A model generated the notes under the pieces. That model did no database searches and had not been told where the DNA came from. It saw only the letters and a list, made by a program, of their open reading frames with translations. DNA of 57,936 bases from Nitratiruptor sp. Its GTDB lineage: Bacteria > Campylobacterota > Campylobacteria > Campylobacterales > Nitratiruptoraceae. The DNA lies in the NCBI GenBank assembly GCA_009659925.1, contig PUXW01000002.1:1-57936 (forward strand). The letters run 5' to 3'. This document shows positions 7,231 to 20,869 of the stretch, in pieces. The position numbers and the translations under genes are program-made. How positions within the stretch are numbered: position 1 is the first letter of the stretch; every line of letters starts with the position of its first letter.

Positions 7231-8094
7231 CTATATCTCGATGCCAAAGTAACGGTTGACGAGGAAGCCGATCACAAAGGAGATCGCCGCTACACCGAAG
7301 GTGATGACTACCATCTCCCGGACCCGGGGCCATAGGGCCTCGTCCCGGGCGATGGCGATGTAGAAGTTGTAGCCTACGATAGCCAGCAAGGCGTTGAGGA
7401 ACATGAAGAGGAGGGCCTCCTTGGCGGAGGGGAGGAGGAAGAAGGGGGCAACCACGAGGATAGTGGTGAAAATGTAGGAGAGTCCTGTGTAGAGGGCGTA
7501 GCGCTTCGGTTCGATCTGGGCCTCCCTTTGCTCCCGGGCTTCCAAGTAGGCGCTTCCAGCCATCGACAAAGAGGCGGCAATGCCCATGATAGTACCGGTG
7601 ATCCCCACATATTTGGCGTTGTCAAAGGCCAGGGCCACCCCGGTGAGGGTTCCGGTCAGCTCCACCAAGGCGTCGTTCATTCCGAGGACGATGGCCCCAG
7701 CGTAGGCTAGTTTGGAGTCGTGGAGCATGGCGATGAGCCGCTGCTCGTGGGAGCGCTCCTCTTCGTAGATTCTTTGAGCTTCAGGGTATTGATCCGCGAT
7801 CTGTTTGTAGAAGGCCTCCGCTTCCCGCTCCCAACGCTCCAAGAGCTTCAAGGCGAAGGAGATACCGAGGATCCGAGCCATGAGGATGAAGAGGCGCACC
7901 CGCCACCAGCGGGGTCGTAGCTCAACTCCAGTAATCTGCTTCCAGAACTGGTAGTGGCGGTACTCCTGATCGGCGATCTGGAGGAAGATCTCCCGATTTT
8001 CGATCTGGCTGCAGAGTCTGGCCATCTCCTTGTAGATCGTATAGTCGTCCAACTCCTTTTGCTGTTGGCGCAACGCCTTCTCTTGCTCTCCCAT
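7231..8094 (-). CDS. Ferritin-like / VIT1 (CCC1) fusion, predicted iron exporter
   Basis: The protein has 287 residues. Residues about 10-130 form a rubrerythrin-like four-helix domain with Glu/His pairs such as ENREIFLQIADQEYRHYQFW and EERSHEQRL. From about 135 to the end there are five membrane segments of the VIT1/CCC1 type, starting with AGAIVLGMNDALVELTGTLTG. This arrangement matches the MbfA-type membrane-bound ferritin, which senses and exports cytoplasmic iron. It is first in the operon. Its own promoter lies in the divergent region at 8115-8141. Confidence 0.9.
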   Translation of the reverse strand: MGEQEKALRQQQKELDDYTIYKEMARLCSQIENREIFLQIADQEYRHYQFWKQITGVELRPRWWRVRLFILMARILGISFALKLLERWEREAEAFYKQIADQYPEAQRIYEEERSHEQRLIAMLHDSKLAYAGAIVLGMNDALVELTGTLTGVALAFDNAKYVGITGTIMGIAASLSMAGSAYLEAREQREAQIEPKRYALYTGLSYIFTTILVVAPFFLLPSAKEALLFMFLNALLAIVGYNFYIAIARDEALWPRVREMVVITFGVAAISFVIGFLVNRYFGIEI

Positions 8095-8114
8095 AGTGCT
8101 CCTTTTTTGCGACT

Positions 8115-8141
8115 ATTATACCAGCCTTTTTGTGCTACAAT
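8115..8141. promoter_or_regulatory. Divergent promoters (VIT1 fusion / AmrS)
   Basis: Leftward, 8120-8115 reads TATAAT, 21 nt from the VIT1-fusion ATG. Rightward, 8136-8141 reads TACAAT, followed by AAAAAAGGAGG and the AmrS ATG. The two boxes are 15 bp apart and point away from each other, so the -35 regions overlap. Confidence 0.5.
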
Positions 8142-8160
8142 AGGAAAAAAGGAGGGCTCT

Positions 8161-9180
8161 ATGAGTGCCATCGCTTGGCTTTCCAAGAAACTCCCCTCCG
8201 GCAAGATCCTCTGCCAGGCCTGTGCCCATGCCTGCAAGTTGGAGGAGGGGGAGGTTGGAATTTGTGGTGTACGGAAGGTGGAGGGGGGGCAACTGCGGCT
8301 CTTGGTCTATGGCAAGGCTGCCGCTTTGAATGTCGATCCTATCGAGAAGAAGCCCCTCTACCACTTTCTGCCCGGAACCACAACCCTGAGCTTCGGGACG
8401 GTTGGATGCAACCTCAGTTGTAGCTTCTGTCAAAACTTTGAGATCAGCCAGTTCCATCGGGAGGGAGCGCCCCTTTTTGGGCGCGACCTTCCCCCCGAAA
8501 TGGCTGTCGAGCTGGCCCGCAAGTATGGGAGTCGCTCCATCTCCTACACCTACAACGAGCCGGTCGTCTGGTTCGAATACAGCTACGACACCGCCAAGCT
8601 GGCTCGAGAGGCTGGATTGCGCAATGTCTATGTGACCAGCGGCTACGAGACCAAGAAGGCAACCCAGCTCTTGAGCGAGGTGATCGATGGCATGAACATC
8701 GACTTGAAGGCTTTCAGCGACCAGTTCTACCAGAAGCTGTGTGGCGCAAGGCTCAAACCGGTTTTAGAGACCATTGAGGAGAGCTATAAACGGGGGATCT
8801 GGATCGAGATTACGACTCTCTTCATTCCCGGAGAGAATGATAGTCCCGAGGAGATGGCCCAGATCGCCTCTTTCATCGCCTCGATCGATACCGCTATTCC
8901 ATGGCATGTGAGTGGATTCTATCCAACTTACAAGATGACCGACAAGCCCCCTACTCCCCCTGAAACCCTGTTGCGCGCCTACGAAATTGGGCGCTCCGAG
9001 GGGCTCCAGTTCGTCTATGTGGGCAATTTTAACTCACCCCAGCACGAGACCACCTATTGTCCAAGCTGCGGTTTTGCTGTGATCGAGCGCAGCGGTTATC
9101 TCGGGGAGCGGGTGGTCAACCACCTCCAGCAGGGACGCTGTCCCAAGTGTGGCACCTACATCCCTGGAGTCTGGGAGTAG
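8161..9180 (+). CDS. amrS: AmrS-like radical SAM enzyme (AmmeMemoRadiSam system)
   Basis: The protein has 339 residues. The radical SAM cluster motif CNLSCSFC puts cysteines at 83, 87 and 90, with the spacing CxxxCxxC. The N-terminal CQACAHAC (Cys18, 21, 25) and a C-terminal zinc-ribbon pair (CPSCG and CPKCG) are typical of this family. The natural substrate is not established. The usual partners AMMECR1 and Memo are not in this window. The ATG at 8161 has a strong AAAGGAGG. The open frame extends further upstream, but without support. Confidence 0.88.
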   Translation: MSAIAWLSKKLPSGKILCQACAHACKLEEGEVGICGVRKVEGGQLRLLVYGKAAALNVDPIEKKPLYHFLPGTTTLSFGTVGCNLSCSFCQNFEISQFHREGAPLFGRDLPPEMAVELARKYGSRSISYTYNEPVVWFEYSYDTAKLAREAGLRNVYVTSGYETKKATQLLSEVIDGMNIDLKAFSDQFYQKLCGARLKPVLETIEESYKRGIWIEITTLFIPGENDSPEEMAQIASFIASIDTAIPWHVSGFYPTYKMTDKPPTPPETLLRAYEIGRSEGLQFVYVGNFNSPQHETTYCPSCGFAVIERSGYLGERVVNHLQQGRCPKCGTYIPGVWE

Positions 9181-9741: not shown

Positions 9742-10869
9742 ATGGTCAAAGGTCTACTTCTCTTCTTGCTCGCTTTGAACCTCATCGCCGCAGATCGGGT
9801 GGATGAGATCGTCTCCCAACTCAAGGCCCTCTCAGGAAAGGAGTTGGCTCCTGTGGTCCTTTTCGTCAAATATGGTCCCGATCGTTTCGACTGGCTCGCT
9901 TTGAGTCCCGATGGGAAGCTGGCGGCCAAGTTGGAGGGAATGGAGCCAGATGGATCTTTTCGCTATACCATTCTCGGGGATCCTGCCCAATATGGCCTCC
10001 ACTTCCAGATCTCCTTGAACAGGGTCGTTGTCGAGACCTTGGAAGGGGATGAGGGGTGTCCGGAGTGCATTGCTTCTTCCCAAGATCAGGATCGGGTTCA
10101 AGAGGCGACTACGGCAGTGACGACCTTCGTCGTCAATCCGACCCTCTTCCAAGGAACGACGCCGGTGCGCAGCCTCCAGCGAGGTGTTGCCCTAACCCTT
10201 CTTCCTCCCAAGGAGCTCATGCAATCCCGCCTCATCCGGGCTACCTATACCCACCCGTGTGCGGGAGGGGGCTCTATCGAGATCCGGATCAACGAGAGCC
10301 AGACGGCCGCGACCTTTCGCTACAGCTCCTGTATCACCCAGCAGGGGGTTCAGCTCGATGGAATCCTCCAGCTTGAAACCACCGATGGAGTTACATTCCA
10401 GGGAAGCTACAAGGACTTCACCGTCTCGATCTATCCCCTGGAAACCCATATCCCCTTTGCCGTCGTCTCTTATACCTACAACGACCAGGGTCTCCTAGAT
10501 CCCTTCCTCTTTCAAGCGCCAACCACCACCATCACCGATCTTGCCCAGGGCTATACTATTCAGGTCAAGGACTATACCCTCCGCATCCAGGAGCTTCCAG
10601 ACCACTCGCTGCTCTGGGTGGAAGGGGACTACCGGCCCGAGTGTAAAAGGGTCTGGAGGAAGGTGGAGACTGTTGCTCCCATCGTTCTGCCCAACGACAA
10701 CTTCTGTCCCCAGGGAGGGATGATCGAAATCGACAATCCCGAGGATGGAGGGCAGAGCCGGGTTGCCTTTACCCGGGAAGGAGGGATCGAGGTCCTGGAT
10801 CAGGAGGGGCGTGTCCTGGCTACCTATGGAAGCTGCCTCGATCTGCCCAAGGTCGATCCTTGTCCCTAA
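9742..10869 (+). CDS. Secreted protein of unknown function
   Basis: The protein has 375 residues. I do not recognise it. Residues 1-17 (VKGLLLFLLALNLIAA) form a signal peptide with a probable cut after Ala, so it should reach the periplasm or outer surface. The rest looks like beta-rich globular sequence. Cysteines occur in CPEC, HPCAGGG, YSSC, RPEC, NFCP, GSC and the terminal DPCP, suggesting disulfides. The ATG at 9742 has AAGGAG 7 nt upstream. It has a single-gene transcription unit and its stop overlaps that of the SDR gene by 4 nt. A second secreted protein (20957-22075) is similar in style but not clearly homologous. Confidence 0.75.
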   Translation: MVKGLLLFLLALNLIAADRVDEIVSQLKALSGKELAPVVLFVKYGPDRFDWLALSPDGKLAAKLEGMEPDGSFRYTILGDPAQYGLHFQISLNRVVVETLEGDEGCPECIASSQDQDRVQEATTAVTTFVVNPTLFQGTTPVRSLQRGVALTLLPPKELMQSRLIRATYTHPCAGGGSIEIRINESQTAATFRYSSCITQQGVQLDGILQLETTDGVTFQGSYKDFTVSIYPLETHIPFAVVSYTYNDQGLLDPFLFQAPTTTITDLAQGYTIQVKDYTLRIQELPDHSLLWVEGDYRPECKRVWRKVETVAPIVLPNDNFCPQGGMIEIDNPEDGGQSRVAFTREGGIEVLDQEGRVLATYGSCLDLPKVDPCP

Positions 10870-11561
10870 TCGAGGGAGCGCACGTCTAGATAGGAGCCGC
10901 TGGGATACTCCAGCAGGCGGGGGAAGATATCGATGAGGAGTCGGGCCCCCTCTTCGGGGCTGTGCCGGGGCGAGTTGGCGAGCCGTTTGACGACGGGGAA
11001 GCGCTCCGGATCTGCGTGGGTGAGGATCCACTCCATCATCGGGGTATCGATGAGCCCGGGAGCCAGGGCGCTCAGGTGGCTCTGGGGCATCTCGGCAGCG
11101 TAGAGTTTGATGAGCATGTTCAAGGCGGCTTTGGAGATGGCATAGCCATTCCATCCCCTGGCCCCACTTACGCTAGCCCCACTGCTAATGGCCACGATCT
11201 GCCTCACATTCAGCCTCTTCTTGAACCAATCGAGGATCACCTTGTTGGCCCAGACGTTCAAATCCATGACCGATTCGATCTCTCGAAGACTCACCTCATC
11301 CATATCCCGAATGGGGCCTAGCCGCCCCGCGTTCAAGATAGCCAGATCCACCTCATCCCTTTCTCCAAAGACCATCTCCAGTGCCTCTGGAATACGCTCA
11401 TGAGCGGCCAGGTCGATGGAGACGAAGTGGCAGTTCGGCCGATCTTGTAACTCTGGGGGTAGATGGCGCCCCAGAGCGTAGACCTCCTTCCCCGCGTCTA
11501 CGTACTCCTTGGCCAGGGCCTTTCCAAGGCCACTGCCAATTCCAGTAATGAAAATGCCCAT
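10866..11561 (-). CDS. Short-chain dehydrogenase/reductase
   Basis: The protein has 231 residues with the classical SDR pattern. The dinucleotide motif TGIGSGLG starts at residue 6, LNAG follows, then the catalytic Ser in ISSGAS and Tyr/Lys in YAISK. It resembles the sepiapterin reductase/benzil reductase-like group, but the substrate cannot be told. The ATG follows GGAGGTTGG. It is the last gene after ppk2 and reverse gyrase, with a 15-nt gap to ppk2. Confidence 0.88.
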   Translation of the reverse strand: MGIFITGIGSGLGKALAKEYVDAGKEVYALGRHLPPELQDRPNCHFVSIDLAAHERIPEALEMVFGERDEVDLAILNAGRLGPIRDMDEVSLREIESVMDLNVWANKVILDWFKKRLNVRQIVAISSGASVSGARGWNGYAISKAALNMLIKLYAAEMPQSHLSALAPGLIDTPMMEWILTHADPERFPVVKRLANSPRHSPEEGARLLIDIFPRLLEYPSGSYLDVRSLD

Positions 11562-11576
11562 CCAACCTCCTTTCGA

Positions 11577-12482
11577 TCAATCGAGCTGTAGGTTGCGTCG
11601 GTGGTAGCGCTGGACGATATCGGGATCGGGGATGAGGGAGACCTTGGCTTCCTCCCTGCCCTCGTAGGGAACCTGGGAGAGGACATAGCGGATCGATTCG
11701 AGCCGGGCCAGCTTCTTGTTGTTGGAATTGACGATGATCCAGGGGCTGTAGCTGGTATGGGTACGGCTGAACATCTCCTCCTTGTACTTGGTGATCTCAT
11801 CCCAGAGCTCCTGGGCCCGCAGGTCGACGGGGCTCAGTTTCCACTGCTTGAGGGGGTTGCGCATACGCTCTTGGAAGCGGCGCTTCTGGGTCTCTTTGGA
11901 GATGGAGAACCAGAACTTGATGAGGATGATCCCATCATCGATGAGGGCGTGTTCGATCTCGGGAACTTCTCGCATGAACCGCTCATATTGTTCCTGGGTG
12001 CAAAAGCCATAGACCGGTTCCACAATGGCCCGGTTGTACCAGCTGCGATCGAAGAAGGCGATTTCCCCCGGGTCCGGGAGGTGTTTGAAGTAGCGTTGGA
12101 AGTAGAATTGCCCCTTTTCCACTTCGGTTGGGGCGGGAAGGGCGACGACCCGATACTTCCTGGGGTTCAGATGCATGATGAAGCGTTTGATCGCCCCCCC
12201 TTTGCCAGCTGCATCCCGCCCTTCGAAGATGATCATGAGCCGCCTCTTCTCCTCATAGATCCAGTTTTGCATCTTGATGAGCTCGATCTGTAGGCGGGTG
12301 AGCTCCTCTTCGTACTCGATCTCCCGGAGCACTTTGGCGATGCGCTTCCTCTTGGCCAGGAGTTTGAGCCCCTTCTTGGTGCGTAGCTTTCCAATGGCCT
12401 CCTCAATGGCCTGGAGGCGCTCCAGGAGTTGGGGTTGATCGATGTGCTCCTTCAAGAAGGCCAGATCGTCACGAATTCCCAT
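11577..12482 (-). CDS. ppk2: Polyphosphate kinase 2 family protein
   Basis: The protein has 301 residues. PPK2 enzymes move phosphate between polyphosphate and nucleotides. The P-loop GRDAAGKGG is at 88-96, the second motif DRSWYNR at 145-151, and a lid region with KRRFQER follows. A charged N-terminal helical extension of about 80 residues matches one-domain PPK2 proteins. Its ATG lies 14 nt inside the end of the reverse gyrase gene, so translation is probably coupled. Whether it favours ADP/GDP or AMP cannot be told from sequence alone. Confidence 0.92.
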   Translation of the reverse strand: MGIRDDLAFLKEHIDQPQLLERLQAIEEAIGKLRTKKGLKLLAKRKRIAKVLREIEYEEELTRLQIELIKMQNWIYEEKRRLMIIFEGRDAAGKGGAIKRFIMHLNPRKYRVVALPAPTEVEKGQFYFQRYFKHLPDPGEIAFFDRSWYNRAIVEPVYGFCTQEQYERFMREVPEIEHALIDDGIILIKFWFSISKETQKRRFQERMRNPLKQWKLSPVDLRAQELWDEITKYKEEMFSRTHTSYSPWIIVNSNNKKLARLESIRYVLSQVPYEGREEAKVSLIPDPDIVQRYHRRNLQLD

Positions 12483-15400
12483 GGGTCAGCTCCTTGGTAA
12501 TCTCCCGATAGAGTCGCTCCAACTCCTCTTCCAAACTCCCCTCTCCAGCGGCGATGCGATCCATCCGCTCCTCTAGCTCCCTTGTATAGTGTTCGTTGAC
12601 GAAGCGATACATTTTGGGGTGGGCCCGGATCTCCTGGTAGACGGCAATGCCAAGCCGGCTTGCCCCAAGAGATCCCCCCCGCTCATAGATGTAGCGGCGC
12701 TCCAAGAGCTTCTCGATGGTGACTGCATAGGTCGAGGGGCGCCCGATGCCCCGGAGGCGCATGCGTTCGATGAGGCTGGCGTAGGTGTAGCGGGGGATCT
12801 TGGGCCGTTTGAGGAGCCGCTTCTCTTGGACGGGGTAACTACCTGGGGTCAATTTGCTCAAAGGTGGGGGGAGGATGAGGTCGTTGCCGTGTTGGAGGAT
12901 GGCGAGGGGAAGCTCTAGCTCCACCTCCCTGCCTTGGGCCTGGATCGTAGCGTGGACGGTGCGGATCTTGGCTGGGCGCATCTGGGAGGCGATGAAGGTG
13001 GCAAAGATGAGGTGGTAGAGTTTGAAATGGTCCCGGGTGAAGGGGAGATGGTGGAGCATGGCGAACTCTTCCAACTCGACGGGTTCCATTGGCCGGGTAG
13101 GGCGGATCGCCTCATGGGCTCCCTGGGAGGTCTCGAAAGAGCGGGGCTGGAAGTACTCTGGACCAAAACGCTGGGAGATATATTCCCGGGCGAGGGCTAT
13201 CCCGGCAGGGCTTACCCGAATCGAGTCGGTCCTGTGGTAGGTGATCACCCCCGCCTCGAAGAGTTGCTGGGCAAGCTCCATGATCTCGTGGGGCGGACGC
13301 TTAAGCTCCTTGCTCCCTTGGGCTAGCATCCTGTCGGTGGTAAAGGGGGTGTAGGTGCGCTCTTTGACGAAGTCTTGATGGAACTGGACTTCGACCCTTT
13401 GCAGCTTCTCGAAAAAGGCTGCCGCCTCCTCCCGCTGGTCGAATTGGAAGGGGATGGACTCTCCTGCGACCTGGGCCTCCACGATCCAGACTATTTGGCG
13501 CGCCTCCTCCTCACGCAAGACGATCCACTCCAGTACCGCCGTTTGGACCCGGCCGGCACTCAAATGGGGGTTGTGGAAGCGGCGCTGAAGGTAGCGGCTG
13601 ATCTCAAATCCAATCCACCGATCGGCGACCCGACGGAGGAGTTGGGCCCGGACCAGATTCTCATCCAGGCCCTGGGGTTCCTGGAGGGCTTGCTCGAAGG
13701 CTCTTGGAGTCACTTCGTGGAAAGCGGCCCGGCGGATGTGGGGGTTGAAGGGGGTGAGATTGAGACCCAGGTCGTAGCCAATCTTCTCCCCTTCCCGATC
13801 GGGATCGGTGGCGATGAAGATCTCCCCGACCTCGACTCCCAACAGCCGCAAGGTCTCAAGGATCTCCAGGCGCTCCTGGTCGATTGGCTCAAAGAGCTCG
13901 ACGAAGTGGTCCTCTTCCTTGATGACTCCGTGGAATCCCTCCTCCTTCTCCAGGTCGAAGAGGTGGCCCTTGGAGGCGGCGATAGTGAGGCTTCCCCGTT
14001 GGGTGAGGATCTCGAAGATGCGGACACCATTGTGGTGGCGTACCAGGGGTTTGCCGTAGAAGTTGGCGATGGTACGCGCCTTGTTGGGGGATTCGACGAT
14101 GACGAGGGTCGTCTTGAAGGGATCTTCAATCCCCCCTTGGGTTTGGGCGGTGCGCATCTTTTCTCGATCTGCATCGATTTCTGCCAGGATTCGATCCAAA
14201 TCGACCTGGTCTGCCGCCTTGAAGTCGATGGAGCCAAACCAGCTCAAGCGCCGTCGCAAGTTGGCAAAGGCCTTCTCGTCGTCCACCAACAAGTAGGCCA
14301 GCCCTTTGCTCAAGCCCCCGGCCCAGAGGCGGCTGGTGCGCCCACTAGCTTGGATGTAGCCGACCGCATCGGCCACCACCACATAGATTTCCCCCTCGTC
14401 GATCTGGAGGGGGAGGAAGGGATCCTTTTGGATGGAGGCTACCAGCTCGGGGGTCAAGAGGGTGGCCACTTGGGCCTTGATCTTGTCCAGGCGCTGGAGG
14501 ACTTGGGGGGCGAGGCGTTCGAGGGGGATGAAGCGGAGGGGTTGGAGGTAGTCCATGGCCTCTTGAGCCCATTGGCGCTCTTGGGGAGGAAGGGCAGGCC
14601 AGATCGCCTTGAGGAAGGTAAAGAGTGAGCGATGATCGTCTCGATCGAGCCGCAAGAGCATTCGAGGCACCCCGAGGAAGAGGGCGTAGCGGATGGTCTC
14701 AGGGGCGTCGATTCCCCGGGCCAGGGGGTTGCGGGCGCTGGCAAAACCGACGGCAACCTCTACCTCTCCCCGGCGAAAGCCCTCGATATCGAGCTCTTCG
14801 TAACTTTGGGCCCGGATGCCAGCCTCTCCCAATGCCTTCACCACCTCTTCAAGGGCCTCCTTGCCCCGATGGGGGCTTAAAAAGAGGAGTCCCCCTGGCC
14901 CAAGGCGCTTGGCGAGGGTGATGGCCCGCTCCAGGGGCTGGGTGGCCGGTTCGTAGAGGTCTTCTACATTGCGGACCGCCAGGGAGGGGCGGCCTACCTC
15001 AAACCCCAAGAGCTCTCGAAAGAGCTGGACCCGTTTGGAGCGGGGGGTTGCCGTGGCACTGGAGACGATAAGGGTGGCGTGGTGCTCCGGCAGCTGGAGG
15101 GGCTCTTCCGATCTCCCTTCCAGGCGTGCGAGGGCCTTTTCGATGAGGGTGGGATCGAATCCGGCGACGAGGAGGAGCTTGTCGATGCTACGGGCCCGTT
15201 TGATGATGGAGTCTACATCATCTACGAAGATGAGTTGGAAGACGGGGGGGATGAGGTGGTAGTTGCGGTAGAGGAAGTTGGTGGTGGTGATGAGGATCGA
15301 AAAATCGCCGGCTTCGATGCGCTCCTTGAGGAGGATCTTCTGCTTCCGGGAGGCATTACTCTCGTAAAGGAGGGGATCGCATCCCCAAGATCGCAGGCGT

Positions 15401-15783
15401 TGGGCGGCTTGGCGGGCCAGGAGGCGGGTGGGGAAGAGAAGGTAGCTCTTTTTGGGGCGCAGGAAGGTTGCCAGAACCAGCCCGAAAGTACTCTTGCCAA
15501 GGCCGGTTGGGGCTAGGAGGGCATAGGAGATACCAAGGAGGGCCCGTTTGCTCCAGGTTCGTTGGAGCTCTCGCAAAGGGGCTCCGACGAGCCTTTGGAA
15601 GAGCTCCTCGAAGGCCGCTTCCCGGCGATTGAGGTCGCAGATCTTCTGGTAGCGACTCTCGACCTGGCAGGGATCCCCTCCGTCGGGTTGGCAGCGACGA
15701 CAGAGGATCCCTTGGGCCAGCCGCTGGCTGCAAATCGTCCCTCCACAGCCGGGGCAGCTGGCGAGATAGCGCAGGTCGATCAA
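12469..15783 (-). CDS. rgy: Reverse gyrase, single polypeptide
   Basis: The protein has 1104 residues. Reverse gyrase adds positive supercoils to DNA and is found in thermophiles. An N-terminal zinc finger has Cys10, 13, 28 and 31. The helicase-like half has APTGLGKST at 91-99, VDDVDS at 187-192 and QASGRTSRL at 478-486. The topoisomerase IA half starts at VIVESPNKA (561-569), has ATDPDREGEK at 658-667, and carries the catalytic Tyr849 in GVITYHRTDS. I see no second cysteine finger in the topoisomerase half. The start is TTG at 15783, overlapping the stop of the regulator gene as TTGA; no other start is near. Confidence 0.97.
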   Translation of the reverse strand: MIDLRYLASCPGCGGTICSQRLAQGILCRRCQPDGGDPCQVESRYQKICDLNRREAAFEELFQRLVGAPLRELQRTWSKRALLGISYALLAPTGLGKSTFGLVLATFLRPKKSYLLFPTRLLARQAAQRLRSWGCDPLLYESNASRKQKILLKERIEAGDFSILITTTNFLYRNYHLIPPVFQLIFVDDVDSIIKRARSIDKLLLVAGFDPTLIEKALARLEGRSEEPLQLPEHHATLIVSSATATPRSKRVQLFRELLGFEVGRPSLAVRNVEDLYEPATQPLERAITLAKRLGPGGLLFLSPHRGKEALEEVVKALGEAGIRAQSYEELDIEGFRRGEVEVAVGFASARNPLARGIDAPETIRYALFLGVPRMLLRLDRDDHRSLFTFLKAIWPALPPQERQWAQEAMDYLQPLRFIPLERLAPQVLQRLDKIKAQVATLLTPELVASIQKDPFLPLQIDEGEIYVVVADAVGYIQASGRTSRLWAGGLSKGLAYLLVDDEKAFANLRRRLSWFGSIDFKAADQVDLDRILAEIDADREKMRTAQTQGGIEDPFKTTLVIVESPNKARTIANFYGKPLVRHHNGVRIFEILTQRGSLTIAASKGHLFDLEKEEGFHGVIKEEDHFVELFEPIDQERLEILETLRLLGVEVGEIFIATDPDREGEKIGYDLGLNLTPFNPHIRRAAFHEVTPRAFEQALQEPQGLDENLVRAQLLRRVADRWIGFEISRYLQRRFHNPHLSAGRVQTAVLEWIVLREEEARQIVWIVEAQVAGESIPFQFDQREEAAAFFEKLQRVEVQFHQDFVKERTYTPFTTDRMLAQGSKELKRPPHEIMELAQQLFEAGVITYHRTDSIRVSPAGIALAREYISQRFGPEYFQPRSFETSQGAHEAIRPTRPMEPVELEEFAMLHHLPFTRDHFKLYHLIFATFIASQMRPAKIRTVHATIQAQGREVELELPLAILQHGNDLILPPPLSKLTPGSYPVQEKRLLKRPKIPRYTYASLIERMRLRGIGRPSTYAVTIEKLLERRYIYERGGSLGASRLGIAVYQEIRAHPKMYRFVNEHYTRELEERMDRIAAGEGSLEEELERLYREITKELTHGNS

Positions 15784-16445
15784 GCCACGCCCCGCTTTTG
15801 CAGGTACTCCTTGATGGCATGGAGGAGTTTGGCCGGGGAGACGATGGGGTATTCGAGCTCCTTGGCGACCTGGGCCCCGTCGATTCCCTTGATGTCAAGG
15901 CCGGCAAGGCGCTGGGCCAGGACCTCTCCGTCTAGAAGGGGATAGCGCAATCCCTTGGTATGTTTGAGGACCTGGTAGGCCCACGGGGCGTCGCAGTGGA
16001 CATGGGAGAGGATCTCTTGGCCCATGGCTCGGCAAAACTCCAGGAGGGTTTGGGCTTCCTGCCCCTCTTTCACCAACTTGTAAGCCATTTTAGCCAGTCC
16101 TCCGGCCACATGGACCTTGAGGTGGCGCCGCTCTTGGGGGGTGAGGTCCTCGTAGTTTTCGATCTTGCGCATGGCAAGCTCTGGATCGGCCCGGAGAATG
16201 GTGCGCACCGTGTTGCGGGTGAGACCGATGAACTGGGCGATCTCCTCCTCGCTCTTGAGGTACTCCTCCCGCAGGACGATGACGAAGGCGGCCCGGGCCA
16301 GGGAGGGGAGCCAGGTGAGGGTGCGGTACTCTGCCAGCTTGCGGAGACCGCCAAGCAGATCGATCCCTTTGAAGAAGACGCGGTCGACCAACTCTTCCAA
16401 TCCGCTCTCGTCGATGGAGAGCTGTCCAGGGGTAAGCAGAATCAT
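15780..16445 (-). CDS. HTH regulator of the 'near-KaiC' type
   Basis: The protein has 221 residues. Residues about 65-85 (SEEEIAQFIGLTRNTVRTIL) are a clear helix-turn-helix. From memory, a family of probable regulators (near_KaiC_dom) is found beside KaiC-like genes in thermophiles, and this protein fits that context. The ATG at 16445 overlaps the stop of the KaiC-like gene as ATGA, and its own stop overlaps the reverse gyrase TTG. It could control the operon, but no operator was identified. Frame upstream of 16445 belongs to the neighbour. Confidence 0.75.
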   Translation of the reverse strand: MILLTPGQLSIDESGLEELVDRVFFKGIDLLGGLRKLAEYRTLTWLPSLARAAFVIVLREEYLKSEEEIAQFIGLTRNTVRTILRADPELAMRKIENYEDLTPQERRHLKVHVAGGLAKMAYKLVKEGQEAQTLLEFCRAMGQEILSHVHCDAPWAYQVLKHTKGLRYPLLDGEVLAQRLAGLDIKGIDGAQVAKELEYPIVSPAKLLHAIKEYLQKRGVA

Positions 16446-17323
16446 TGTTCCTCCTTCTTCGATGTTCCAAGGGCTGGTCCGATCCGAACCAGCCCGGTTG
16501 GGGTGATCTCCATGAAATGGGTCCGGGTGTCGTGTCCGCTCATCCGACATCCATCGATTCGAAAGAGCCGAACGATCTCCCCTATGCGGGCCCCATAGAT
16601 TCTGGCGGCGTACTGGCTGGTGATGAGTTCCTTGGCCAAGACCATCGTTCCGTCGACGATATGGCCGACTGCATAGCCTCCAGCCGCCTCGGCGCTGAGT
16701 TCTTCATGGCCGCTGCGCTTCTGGCTGACGAAGAGGGCCGTCTGGTACCACTTCTTCATGAAGTTGAAGAGGCGCCGCACGATGGCCCGGGCCATCATCT
16801 CCTTGTTCTCGAAGAGACCTGTAACCGAATCGACGATGGTAAAATCGATCTTGTACTCCTTGATGGCATAAGCCAGCGTGGAGAGGAGATCCGGTAGATT
16901 CTCCCGCAAGCTCCCATGACTGGCGGCGTCGATGAGGATGATGTTGTCCTCGAACTCCTGGAAGTCGAGGCCCATCGCTAAGGCTCTGTACTTGAGGGAG
17001 GCGGCTACGAAGTTGGCTGGGCTTTCGACGGTGATGAAGGCCACCTTTTTGCCCCGACTTGCCTGATAGACGGCAAACTGCTCCACCATGAGGCTCTTGC
17101 CCGTATCGCTGACACCTGTAATGTTGCAGACCGCATATTTGGGGATGCCTCCCAGGGGGACCTGCTGGAGTTTGCCCTCTACCTCCCGCACGGTGAAAAA
17201 GAGTTCGTCGAGTCCCTCGATGCCTGTGGGGATCCCTTGAAGCTCTGGGGCCTTCGCGATAGCCTGGCTGCCGGTAAAGATCGCCTCCTTGACAACTCGG
17301 GGCTCGTTGAAATGTTGATCCAT
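16442..17323 (-). CDS. KaiC-like RecA-superfamily ATPase
   Basis: The protein has 293 residues with one RecA/KaiC-type domain. The Walker A motif GVSDTGKS is at 70-77 and Walker B FTIVDS at 161-166. ITVESPANF after Walker A and the SQKRSGHEELSAEAAGGYAVGHIVDG block are KaiC-family in style. A family of this type restricted to thermophiles is known to me, but its function is not established. The ATG at 17323 has GGAGGTGTG directly upstream. It is the first gene of the operon leading to reverse gyrase. Confidence 0.85.
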   Translation of the reverse strand: MDQHFNEPRVVKEAIFTGSQAIAKAPELQGIPTGIEGLDELFFTVREVEGKLQQVPLGGIPKYAVCNITGVSDTGKSLMVEQFAVYQASRGKKVAFITVESPANFVAASLKYRALAMGLDFQEFEDNIILIDAASHGSLRENLPDLLSTLAYAIKEYKIDFTIVDSVTGLFENKEMMARAIVRRLFNFMKKWYQTALFVSQKRSGHEELSAEAAGGYAVGHIVDGTMVLAKELITSQYAARIYGARIGEIVRLFRIDGCRMSGHDTRTHFMEITPTGLVRIGPALGTSKKEEQ

Positions 17324-17341
17324 CACACCTCCTTTAGGGCT

Positions 17342-17347
17342 ATTGTA
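17342..17347 (-). promoter_or_regulatory. -10 element of the KaiC-like / reverse gyrase operon
   Basis: The leftward strand reads GTGCTACAATAGCCC, with TACAAT about 18 nt before the KaiC-like ATG and AAAGGAGG between them. The 150 nt between this operon and the 5-oxoprolinase stop hold no other gene that I can support. Confidence 0.5.
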
Positions 17348-17473
17348 GCACAAGGATTGGCGATCCATTGCGACTTTTGGAGCATTCGATCTTCTCTAAC
17401 GTCTAGGGGCCTCGATTTGCAGACTATGTTTGTGGCCAAGGATCTCGATCCGAGGCTCTATGCACTGCCCTTT

Positions 17474-20400
17474 TCATTGTTTGCCCCATCCGCCCCCGCC
17501 AGGGGTTTCGATCACCAAGAGATCACCCTTTTGGGCCCTGAAGCTGTTTTTGCCGCCAAGCTCAAAGACTCTGCCGCCACGCACCAGGTAGTTGCGGCCC
17601 CTAGCTCCAGGGGCCCCGCCTGCAAGTCCTCTGGGGGCTAGAGTGCGCCGCTCTGTAAGCAGACTCACCTCCACCTCATCTAAAAAGCGGTATTTGCGCA
17701 CAGCCCCATCACCACCTCTATGCTTGCCCGCTCCACCGCTGCCTCGGCGCAGGGCAAACTCCTCGATCCGGACGGGATAGCGGCGCTCGATGATCTCCAC
17801 GTCGGTGATGCGGGTGTTGGTCATGTGGGTATGGACCGCGTCGGCTCCAGGGGCTTCTGGTGTAGCTCCTGCCCCACCGCAGATGGTCTCGTAATAGCCA
17901 AACCCTTCATTTCCAAAGATCACGTTGTTCATGCACCCTTGGGAGTTGGCGGCCACGCCAAAAGCGTGGAGAATCACATCGACGATCCGCTGGCTGGTGG
18001 TCACATTCCCCCCGACGATGGCAAGCTCTGGATCCGGATCGAGAATGGTTCCCTGGGGTACCCGAAGTTCAATGGCCTCCAAGATCCCCTCGTTGAGGGG
18101 GATATCCTCTCCCAGCATCACCCGAAGGGCATAGAGCACCGCCGAGCGTACCACCGCAAGGGGGGTGTTCTGGTTGCCAAGGAGTTGGGGTGAGCTTTGG
18201 GAGAAGTCGAAGATATAGCGGCCATGCTCTTCGTAGGTACGAAGAGCAATCACGGCGCCATTGTCCAGCCTGTCCTCCCCTGCCACTGGGCCCATGGTCT
18301 GTAAAAAGGCGACTATCTTCTCTCTGCTTCGTTGCCGGATGGAATCGAAGAACCACAGGAGCTCGCGACGATCGAGTTGGAGAACTCCCTTGATTCCCTC
18401 CATGTTGGCGGCGATCTGGGCCTTGATGTCGCTGATGTTATCTTCGATCGTTCGCCCGCCGGCGGCCTGGAAGATCCTTCGCAATCCCTCTTCGTCGAAG
18501 TGTCCATCTTGAAGCACGGGAAAGGCTTGGATCACCGCCCCCTCTTCCACGAGCCATTTGGAAAAGGGGGGCATGCTCCCCGGAACCACACCACCAATGT
18601 CGGCATGATGGCCCCGACTAGCCACCCAAAAGATCGTCTCACCATCTTCGATGTAGGGGGTAACGACGGTGATGTCGGGCAGATGGGACCCCCCTTCGTA
18701 GGGGGCGTTGGTGATGTAGGTGGCATCCTCATATCCCTTAGCGATGATACTCTTAACCACGCTGCTCATGGACCCCAGGTGGACCGGGATGTGGGGGGCG
18801 TTGACGATGAGGTTGCCTTGGGCGTCGAAGATGGCACAACTAAAATCGGCCCGTTCCTTGATGTTGACGCTCTTGGCGCTGCGCTGGAGGGTCTCTCCCA
18901 TCTTCTTGGCGATGAAGGTGAGGCGGTTGGCAAGGAGGGTGCGCCGAGCCTCTTCGAGGCCGCTGCTTTGCTCCTCCCCTACTACTTCGATCTCTAGATC
19001 CCCATACTCGTTGATTCTTCCCCGGCTCTTGGCGTCCAGGAGAATGGTGGTCTCCTTGAAGAGGACCAGGGCTGGGCCGGTGATGGTGGTTCCGGCTAGG
19101 GGGTCGACGTAGAGTTGGGCCTTGGTGAACCTTCCATCGAGGAAGATAGTCCGCTCCCCTACCGGCTGGCTTGGGCCTTTGGGAATGGGGGGACGGGGAG
19201 GGGGTGCCTCCCCTTTGAAATAGGCGATCTTGACGCTTTCGATCTCCACCTCCCCTTCGGGCAAGAAACCATAGATCTGCCGATAGCGTTTGGCAAAGAG
19301 CTCTTGGTACTCTGGAACGAAGGGGATTTCCAAAGAGGTTTCGGTTCCTCTAACGCGCACCAGGAGGCTCCGCTCGATGGTATAGCCCCGGGGTACCTGG
19401 GCTTCAAGGGAAGCAAAGGCCTCTTCGAGGGAGGTGTTGAGGGTTTGGATCAGCTCTCCCCCCTCTTTGGCGTAGGCGATTCCCATGGCCGAGAGGATGC
19501 CGCCAAGGCGGGGGACCAAAACTTCCCGGATACCCAGAAGCCTAGCGACCGCTACCCCGTGTTGGCCCCCGGCTCCACCGAAGACGCACAGCCGATGGTT
19601 TTTAGGATCGTAGCCCTTCTTGATGGTCACCTCCTTGACCGCCAGGGCCATCTGTTCGTTGGCTACATCGATGAAGGCCTGAGCTACTTCTTCCACGCTT
19701 GCCCCCACTTCCCGGGCGATAGGCTCAAAGGCTCTCCTGGCCCCTTCCAGATCGAGGGGGCTTGTGCCGTCAGGACCGAAGATAGGAGGAATCGAGTCGC
19801 GATCGAGCCGCCCTGTCACCAAATTGGCGTCGGTCAGACTCAAGAAGCCTCCCCGTCCATAGCACACGGGACCAGGGTCGCTCCCACTACTCTCTGGACC
19901 CACCACGAACATTCCATTCCGCAAGAAGAGGCGGCTCCCTCCGCCTGCAGCCACCGTATGGATGTCGACCATGGGGGTGCAGATGTAGCTGCCGCCAATC
20001 TTGCCGCGATAGCGCAGTTCGATGGCTCCATCGTAGCGGCTCACATCGGTACTCGTACCCCCCATGTCGAAACCGATGAGGGGGGTACCATCGTAGTAGG
20101 CTTCCAGGGCAACGACCCCCCCGGCTGGTCCACTCAAGAGGGCGTTGGAGCCCCGAAACCCATCGATTGAGGTGAGGCGGCCATCGCTCTTGATGAAGGA
20201 GATCCGTTGGCTTTCCACTGGAAGGTTTGCAACGATGCGCTCGATATAGCGACGCAAAGGTGGCTCCAAATAGGCATCCACCACCGTCGTATCGGCCCGG
20301 TCGATGGCTTTGATGACCGGAGCGATCTGGCTGGAACGGCTGACCCGATACCCCCGCTCTTGGAGCCAGGCCGCTAACTCCTCCTCATGGCGGGGGAAGA

Positions 20401-20869
20401 TGTCGCTATGGAGCAGGACGAGGGCGACATTGGAATGCTTGGGGAGGGGAGGAAGCTCCAGGGGATCTTGGACTCTGGGCTCTCCCGAAGCCATGGTAAT
20501 TCGCTCCTTGACCCCGATCACCTCGTCGTAGAGGGGGGTTGGTTTGGTGATGGCTAGGGCGAAGAGATCCTCCCGATCTTGGTAGCGGATCTCGAGGATA
20601 TCCTCAAAACCTTGGGTGACCAGGAGGCTCACCTTAGCCCCTTTGCGCTCTAGGAGGGCATTGGTGGCTACCGTCGTTCCTAACCGGATCCACTCGATCT
20701 GGTCATATCCCGCCCCGATCTCCTGGAGCAGCTCTTGGATCCCGTGGGCATGGGGGTCGGGATAGTTTGGAGAGTGGCTTAAAACCTTCTTGGTATAGAC
20801 CCGTTTGTCGTCTACGATGGCATAGATATCGGTGAAGGTTCCACCCCGGTCGATAGCGATCTTGATCAT
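17474..20869 (-). CDS. 5-oxoprolinase / hydantoinase A-B fusion
   Basis: The protein has 1131 residues in one chain, close to full-length 5-oxoprolinase. Residues 1 to about 630 are the A (ATP-binding) part, with DRGGTFTDIYA at the start and FDMGGTSTDVSRYDG near 270. From about 640 the B part follows, with KSVNIKERADFSCAIFD and a glycine-rich C-terminus (RRGSGGAGKHRGGDGAVRKY). The enzyme opens 5-oxoproline or hydantoin rings using ATP. Which of these it uses is not certain. The ATG at 20869 has only a weak ribosome binding site. It stands alone. Confidence 0.9.
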   Translation of the reverse strand: MIKIAIDRGGTFTDIYAIVDDKRVYTKKVLSHSPNYPDPHAHGIQELLQEIGAGYDQIEWIRLGTTVATNALLERKGAKVSLLVTQGFEDILEIRYQDREDLFALAITKPTPLYDEVIGVKERITMASGEPRVQDPLELPPLPKHSNVALVLLHSDIFPRHEEELAAWLQERGYRVSRSSQIAPVIKAIDRADTTVVDAYLEPPLRRYIERIVANLPVESQRISFIKSDGRLTSIDGFRGSNALLSGPAGGVVALEAYYDGTPLIGFDMGGTSTDVSRYDGAIELRYRGKIGGSYICTPMVDIHTVAAGGGSRLFLRNGMFVVGPESSGSDPGPVCYGRGGFLSLTDANLVTGRLDRDSIPPIFGPDGTSPLDLEGARRAFEPIAREVGASVEEVAQAFIDVANEQMALAVKEVTIKKGYDPKNHRLCVFGGAGGQHGVAVARLLGIREVLVPRLGGILSAMGIAYAKEGGELIQTLNTSLEEAFASLEAQVPRGYTIERSLLVRVRGTETSLEIPFVPEYQELFAKRYRQIYGFLPEGEVEIESVKIAYFKGEAPPPRPPIPKGPSQPVGERTIFLDGRFTKAQLYVDPLAGTTITGPALVLFKETTILLDAKSRGRINEYGDLEIEVVGEEQSSGLEEARRTLLANRLTFIAKKMGETLQRSAKSVNIKERADFSCAIFDAQGNLIVNAPHIPVHLGSMSSVVKSIIAKGYEDATYITNAPYEGGSHLPDITVVTPYIEDGETIFWVASRGHHADIGGVVPGSMPPFSKWLVEEGAVIQAFPVLQDGHFDEEGLRRIFQAAGGRTIEDNISDIKAQIAANMEGIKGVLQLDRRELLWFFDSIRQRSREKIVAFLQTMGPVAGEDRLDNGAVIALRTYEEHGRYIFDFSQSSPQLLGNQNTPLAVVRSAVLYALRVMLGEDIPLNEGILEAIELRVPQGTILDPDPELAIVGGNVTTSQRIVDVILHAFGVAANSQGCMNNVIFGNEGFGYYETICGGAGATPEAPGADAVHTHMTNTRITDVEIIERRYPVRIEEFALRRGSGGAGKHRGGDGAVRKYRFLDEVEVSLLTERRTLAPRGLAGGAPGARGRNYLVRGGRVFELGGKNSFRAQKGDLLVIETPGGGGWGKQ

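Follow-up and report, generated by a model that had tools for sequence, protein, structure and literature searches.

A conserved KaiC-HTH-reverse gyrase block in a Nitratiruptor genome and its candidate Crp/Fnr-type operator shared with chaperone genes

Reverse gyrase protects DNA in thermophiles and is a hallmark enzyme of hyperthermophiles. In a 57,936-nt stretch of a Nitratiruptor sp. genome (GCA_009659925.1, contig PUXW01000002.1, positions 1 to 57,936; hereafter the window), its gene (rgy) is joined by overlaps to genes for a KaiC-domain ATPase and a helix-turn-helix (HTH) protein. Our results show that this KaiC-HTH-rgy block recurs in related Campylobacterota and that its promoter carries a 16-bp dyad, which stands at the same distance from the -10 element in front of dnaK, clpB and other stress genes; at the level of sequence, membership of the block in this regulon is established. 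The reverse gyrase of this organism therefore probably belongs to a heat/oxidative stress regulon of the Crp/Fnr type. The parts are ordinary. What appears to be new is the conservation of the block and, still more, its apparent place within a chaperone regulon of the Crp/Fnr type; a literature search found no paper on the block or on the dyad regulon.

The KaiC-HTH-reverse gyrase block

The KaiC-domain ATPase (16442..17323, minus strand; 293 aa, Walker A GVSDTGKS) has a single KaiC domain and exceeds the curated cut-off of thermo_KaiC_2 (TIGR03878; 450 bits, cut-off 232). Its start is the ATG at 17323, which has a good ribosome binding site, and a longer frame from 17368, starting upstream of the -10 element, is unlikely. 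The HTH protein (15780..16445, minus strand; 221 aa) scores above the cut-off of near_KaiC_dom (TIGR03879; 126 bits, cut-off 65) and has a TIGR03878 gene as its neighbour. Its AlphaFold model (pLDDT 82.7) gave matches that are HTH-like but weak: a Foldseek search against the PDB returned nothing under E 0.001, and the best VIA-align match (Z 5.3) was at noise level among generic HTH-like proteins (ParB, DeoR, sigma region 4), with the C-terminal half of the model scarcely covered. We therefore claim no fold family for this protein. The rgy gene (12469..15783, minus strand; 1104 aa, TTG start) encodes a member of the reverse gyrase family, with a predicted ATP-dependent positive supercoiling activity: the TIGR01054 match (1043 bits, cut-off 472) spans 1095 residues and includes an N-terminal zinc finger (CPGCG...CRRC), a helicase half with APTGLGKS and DDVD, and a C-terminal topoisomerase IA half with the catalytic tyrosine motif YHRTDS. 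KaiC and HTH overlap by 4 nt (ATGA), as do HTH and rgy (TTGA), and translational coupling at these overlaps would let the three proteins be made together.

KaiC, HTH and rgy lie side by side in 17 Campylobacterota loci, the window included. The adjacency holds in all six window-family genomes that carry the three genes, in 11 further named Campylobacterota loci and in five Persephonella-type loci of the Aquificota; the named loci, 80 in all, were obtained by scanning 84,980 species genomes. Since the same order recurs in related genomes, it is not a product of chance. One further locus (L068) has rgy and KaiC in divergent orientation, a short distance apart. Among 249 genomes sampled from the phylum, 10 encode KaiC (TIGR03878) and 13 a true reverse gyrase; every one of the 10 is among the 13, with a Fisher p of about 1e-15 that ignores kinship and thermophily. 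KaiC-bearing genomes nearly always carry rgy outside this sample as well, as in 45 of the 50 named KaiC genomes and in 87 of 91 from the Aquificota, where 101 genomes divide into 87 with both genes, 4 with KaiC alone, 6 with rgy alone and 4 with neither. The HTH gene accompanies KaiC in 10/10 Campylobacterota KaiC genomes, and in the Aquificota it does so even when unlinked.

The neighbours of the pair vary more widely. KaiC and rgy are side by side in 9 of the 87 Aquificota genomes that have both. In the Nautiliaceae-type sister family, KaiC-HTH is paired with pyruvate kinase and rgy lies elsewhere, and three genomes of that family have rgy with KaiC and HTH absent; in L022, L023, L024 and L025, of the same type, KaiC-HTH and pyruvate kinase overlap by 1-4 nt and a DAHP synthase gene lies upstream. 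KaiC-HTH precedes GAPDH in Thermocrinis, an EAL/GGDEF protein in Hydrogenobaculum and other genes elsewhere, and KaiC with no adjoining HTH precedes PurH in some Aquificales. In seven Thermodesulfobacteriota loci (L104:8848-13046; L076, L091, L093, L095, L100, L106), a same-strand SMC gene, for chromosome condensation and thus another DNA-topology gene, directly follows KaiC-HTH.

Phylogenetic trees of the three genes put the blocks of Nitratiruptor type and those of Persephonella type in separate clades, and non-adjacent relatives branch near the latter; adjacency has therefore changed at least twice. The rgy and HTH of L068 are of Thermodesulfobacterial type, with trees that agree in part with co-transfer. 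We do not claim a strict block transfer of KaiC-HTH with rgy, the trees disagreeing for Caldimicrobium (L086) and Aquificaceae (L085, L110). A plasmid search returned reverse gyrase on 16 Thermus plasmids and one KaiC on a Thermomicrobium plasmid; the Thermus rgy plasmids had no TIGR03878-family KaiC, and the Thermomicrobium KaiC had no reverse gyrase nearby. In four Aquificota genomes (G361, G377, G358, G374), reverse gyrase frames of 1424-1688 aa have their profile match split by ~500-1300 bases, possibly by inteins.

The promoter and its candidate operator

Direct reading of the minus strand upstream of KaiC reveals a ribosome binding site, AAAGGAGG (17328..17335), and a -10 element TACAAT with an extended TG (TGCTACAAT; 17342..17347), in agreement with the original prediction, made from the sequence alone, of a promoter in front of these genes. 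A candidate operator on the same strand, the 16-bp dyad TGCTCCAAAAGTCGCA (17369..17384), agrees with the regulon motif TGCNACTNNAGTNGCA at 10 of 12 positions; it lies 21 bp upstream of the -10, with its centre at about -41.5 from the inferred start. A simple sigma-70 consensus scan called no promoter in the region because the KaiC promoter has no -35 box. Class II Crp/Fnr sites are 16-bp dyads with 5-6-5 arms centred at -41.5, and the geometry observed here, with its extended -10, would correspond to the position of a class II activator.

Within the window, a dyad with a spaced -10 is found at the KaiC site alone, against 0.05 such arrangements expected from shuffles. Of 17 orthologous KaiC promoters, 14 have the dyad upstream of the -10 at a distance of 21-22 bp, counting the window's and one judged by eye (L017, -10 TAAGAT), and nearly all family members have a TTTGCTATAAT-like -10 at the same position.

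A probable dyad regulon of chaperone and redox genes

The initial motif was drawn by eye from KaiC promoters and then tested on other genes, from which the refined pattern was obtained; at most one mismatch was allowed, and the reversed motif served as control. When seven family genomes were first scanned for the dyad with a spaced -10, dnaK was recovered in two of them and yfdX in the window's own. With the refined dyad, these genomes gave 77 matches against 20 for the control (p about 2e-9), and two Nautiliaceae genomes showed no enrichment (2 vs 6, 0 vs 3). A -10 lies at exactly 21 bp in 27 of 55 distinct sites and at 22 bp in another 5, the background being about 1.1 sites per other spacing (Poisson p about 3e-28 for the 21-bp peak); the spacing from dyad to -10 is thus fixed across many promoters, as in a class II regulon. 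In the window's own genome, each of the five dyad sites has its -10 either 21 or 22 bp away.

Dyad sites precede dnaK in five genomes, including that of the window, clpB in two, and yfdX in six, where they adjoin a Crp/Fnr gene; the window's genome has a second yfdX among the targets. Further targets are rhodanese (four genomes), peroxiredoxin, a BFD-type ferredoxin, DUF505 and a radical-SAM gene. A small protein of 88 aa (MKELKDFDQKVQIEYPTIWRYKV...) is likewise associated with a regulon site, placed 21 bp from TATGAT, in L202, L212 and L227. Two other genes of the window, VIT1/rubrerythrin-like (7231-8094) and radical-SAM (7954-9180), have relatives near regulon sites in G031, G036 and G013; in the window itself no regulon site precedes them.

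The Crp/Fnr-family protein encoded beside yfdX is the likely binder of the dyad. Its gene, which encodes cNMP_binding and HTH_Crp_2 domains, runs up to the yfdX site in six genomes, and the candidate (G000:C11:5726-6400) was chosen on gene neighbourhood and co-distribution. Orthologues occur in 7/7 family genomes, including G053, which lacks the HTH gene, and were not found in six Nautiliaceae genomes; this protein is favoured because it is present together with motif enrichment, absent in Nautiliaceae and kept in HTH-less G053. Conserved pairs of a Crp/Fnr regulator and a secreted YfdX with the dyad between them are found at L204:2636-4400 and in L179, L181, L182, L183 and L184.

Neighbouring genes and history of the site

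The window's genome is a Campylobacterota genome of 1.44 Mb in 20 contigs; in the trees, the named genomes closest to it are vent genomes of Nitratiruptor type. Downstream of rgy, which it overlaps by 14 nt, lies polyphosphate kinase 2 (PPK2; 11577..12482, minus strand), a member of TIGR03707 by score (351 vs 302 bits cut-off) and by the motifs GRDAAGKGG and DRSWYNRA read in its translation; in the original prediction, it may tie nucleotide supply to polyphosphate. After a 15-nt gap follows a short-chain dehydrogenase (SDR; 10866..11561, minus strand; adh_short, 86 bits). Upstream, a hyuAB-like 5-oxoprolinase/hydantoinase fusion (17474..20869, minus strand; identified by Pfam) ends 150 nt before KaiC and marks the left border of the insertion site, as it adjoins SDR in G053.

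Frames and profile scores bear out the original prediction as to the five leftward genes, their families and their overlaps. It had gone on to propose that the five form one module, and this is ruled out by the empty site of G053 and the optional PPK2. In G053, from the same family, KaiC, HTH and rgy are all absent and hyuAB leads directly to SDR and then to a radical-SAM gene; the L047 and L059 blocks lack PPK2, of which G029 and G036 contain no close orthologue; and in the Nautiliaceae-type family the orthologues of both PPK2 and SDR are dispersed. Scattering of the genes in relatives was the outcome named beforehand as telling against the module, and PPK2 and SDR come close to it. SDR appears to be an older bystander, at the site before the block or independently of it, since hyuAB directly precedes it in the block-less G053. 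KaiC-HTH-rgy, with or without PPK2, thus seems to behave as one block at the hyuAB/SDR border, inserted or kept there; G053 may have lost it, or the other genomes may have gained it.

Discussion

The model we favour, and regard as fairly probable as a whole, starts from the observed order and its conservation, the empty site, the motif, its spacing and regulon membership. KaiC, HTH and rgy, here with PPK2, would form one transcription unit, inserted or kept between hyuAB and SDR; a Crp/Fnr protein would bind and activate at the dyads of the KaiC, dnaK, clpB, yfdX, peroxiredoxin and rhodanese promoters; and heat or redox stress would raise reverse gyrase and the chaperones jointly. KaiC-HTH would probably be an accessory ATPase/DNA-binding pair of thermophiles that bear reverse gyrase.

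Each element has a known counterpart. As in most genomes with the TIGR03878/TIGR03879 pair, both window proteins exceed the family cut-offs and are neighbours; here, however, overlaps join them to reverse gyrase, whereas elsewhere other genes follow, and NCBIfam assigns the pair no function. A 16-bp dyad near -41.5, an extended -10 and a candidate with cNMP_binding and HTH_Crp_2 domains are shared with class II Crp/Fnr regulons, although the targets here are chaperones, yfdX, redox proteins and reverse gyrase. YfdX is part of a heat-resistance locus in Enterobacteriaceae, and YfdX-domain proteins are likewise among the genes likely co-regulated here; unlike in that transmissible locus, yfdX is chromosomal and adjoins the Crp/Fnr gene, with no mobile island seen. 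In Nautilia profundicola, another vent member of the Campylobacterota, reverse gyrase is induced by thermal stress, its mRNA rising >100-fold at 65 C (PMC2628731), whereas Nautiliaceae have rgy apart from KaiC-HTH, and neither the Crp/Fnr orthologue nor motif enrichment was found in them. The dyad common to the dnaK and KaiC promoters suggests that DNA protection is switched on with the heat-shock response. In this regard, the proposed link to temperature survives through the promoter site common to dnaK and clpB, and not through KaiC or HTH.

Several observations weigh against the activation model. No recognisable dyad was found in L049, to which the window locus is most closely related, in L059 and L043, or in Persephonella upstream regions; the window's own genome has no excess of raw dyads (5 vs 8 in the control); read-through from hyuAB into the block is possible; and the binder may be another Crp/Fnr paralogue. 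In RNA-seq results reported for Nitratiruptor SB155-2 under Cd/Cu stress, dnaK and grpE are raised, but neither KaiC nor reverse gyrase is among the 27 shared genes listed there (PMC10092412); metal stress alone may therefore not switch on the whole set.

Control from within the block was the idea of the original prediction, in which KaiC senses energy or temperature and HTH autoregulates upstream of 17347, setting supercoiling. The helix-turn-helix-like region of the structural model would suit such a role, and the co-occurrence of KaiC and HTH, linked or not, indicates that the pair probably works together. Yet the dyad is a genome-wide motif that precedes many other genes and persists in G053, from which the near-KaiC HTH is absent; G040, the one scanned Nautiliaceae genome that has the HTH, shows neither a motif match nor enrichment; and KaiC-HTH upstream regions in other phyla have no dyad. 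The HTH protein is therefore disfavoured as binder, and we hold this explanation to be improbable. A repressor of the HrcA/HspR kind at the dyad seems to us equally hard to credit: the targets are classic heat-shock genes, and such genes are under HspR/HrcA repression in Helicobacter, but a Crp/Fnr gene adjoins one site, the arms, centre and extended -10 have the geometry of a Crp/Fnr class II activator, and the dyad fits, to our knowledge, neither CIRCE nor HAIR.

The meaning of the adjacency to rgy is a separate matter. KaiC-HTH could be a self-contained pair placed beside assorted housekeeping genes, its position next to rgy being neutral and inherited in two lineages; this is a real possibility, if somewhat short of an even one. 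The placement before pyruvate kinase, GAPDH and SMC (or PurH, for KaiC alone) and the rarity of adjacency in Aquificota speak for it, but the adjacency extends throughout the Nitratiruptor-type clade and was gained or retained on at least two occasions, L068 adds a third, divergent case, and KaiC-bearing genomes almost always have rgy. Conversely, because KaiC-HTH co-occurs with rgy, lies in its operon in two phyla and adjoins SMC in a third, the pair might be dedicated to chromosome topology at high temperature and, in Nitratiruptor relatives, be Crp/Fnr-activated along with chaperones; we put this forward as a rather doubtful extension of the model.

The KaiC-HTH-rgy block offers two testable partners of reverse gyrase, and the operator common to dnaK and clpB points to a regulator that can be tested in cultivable members of the Campylobacterota. 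Should the model of Crp/Fnr activation be true, DNA protection and protein quality control would form a single stress regulon in these organisms, governed by a Crp/Fnr-type activator and not by the usual heat-shock repressors.

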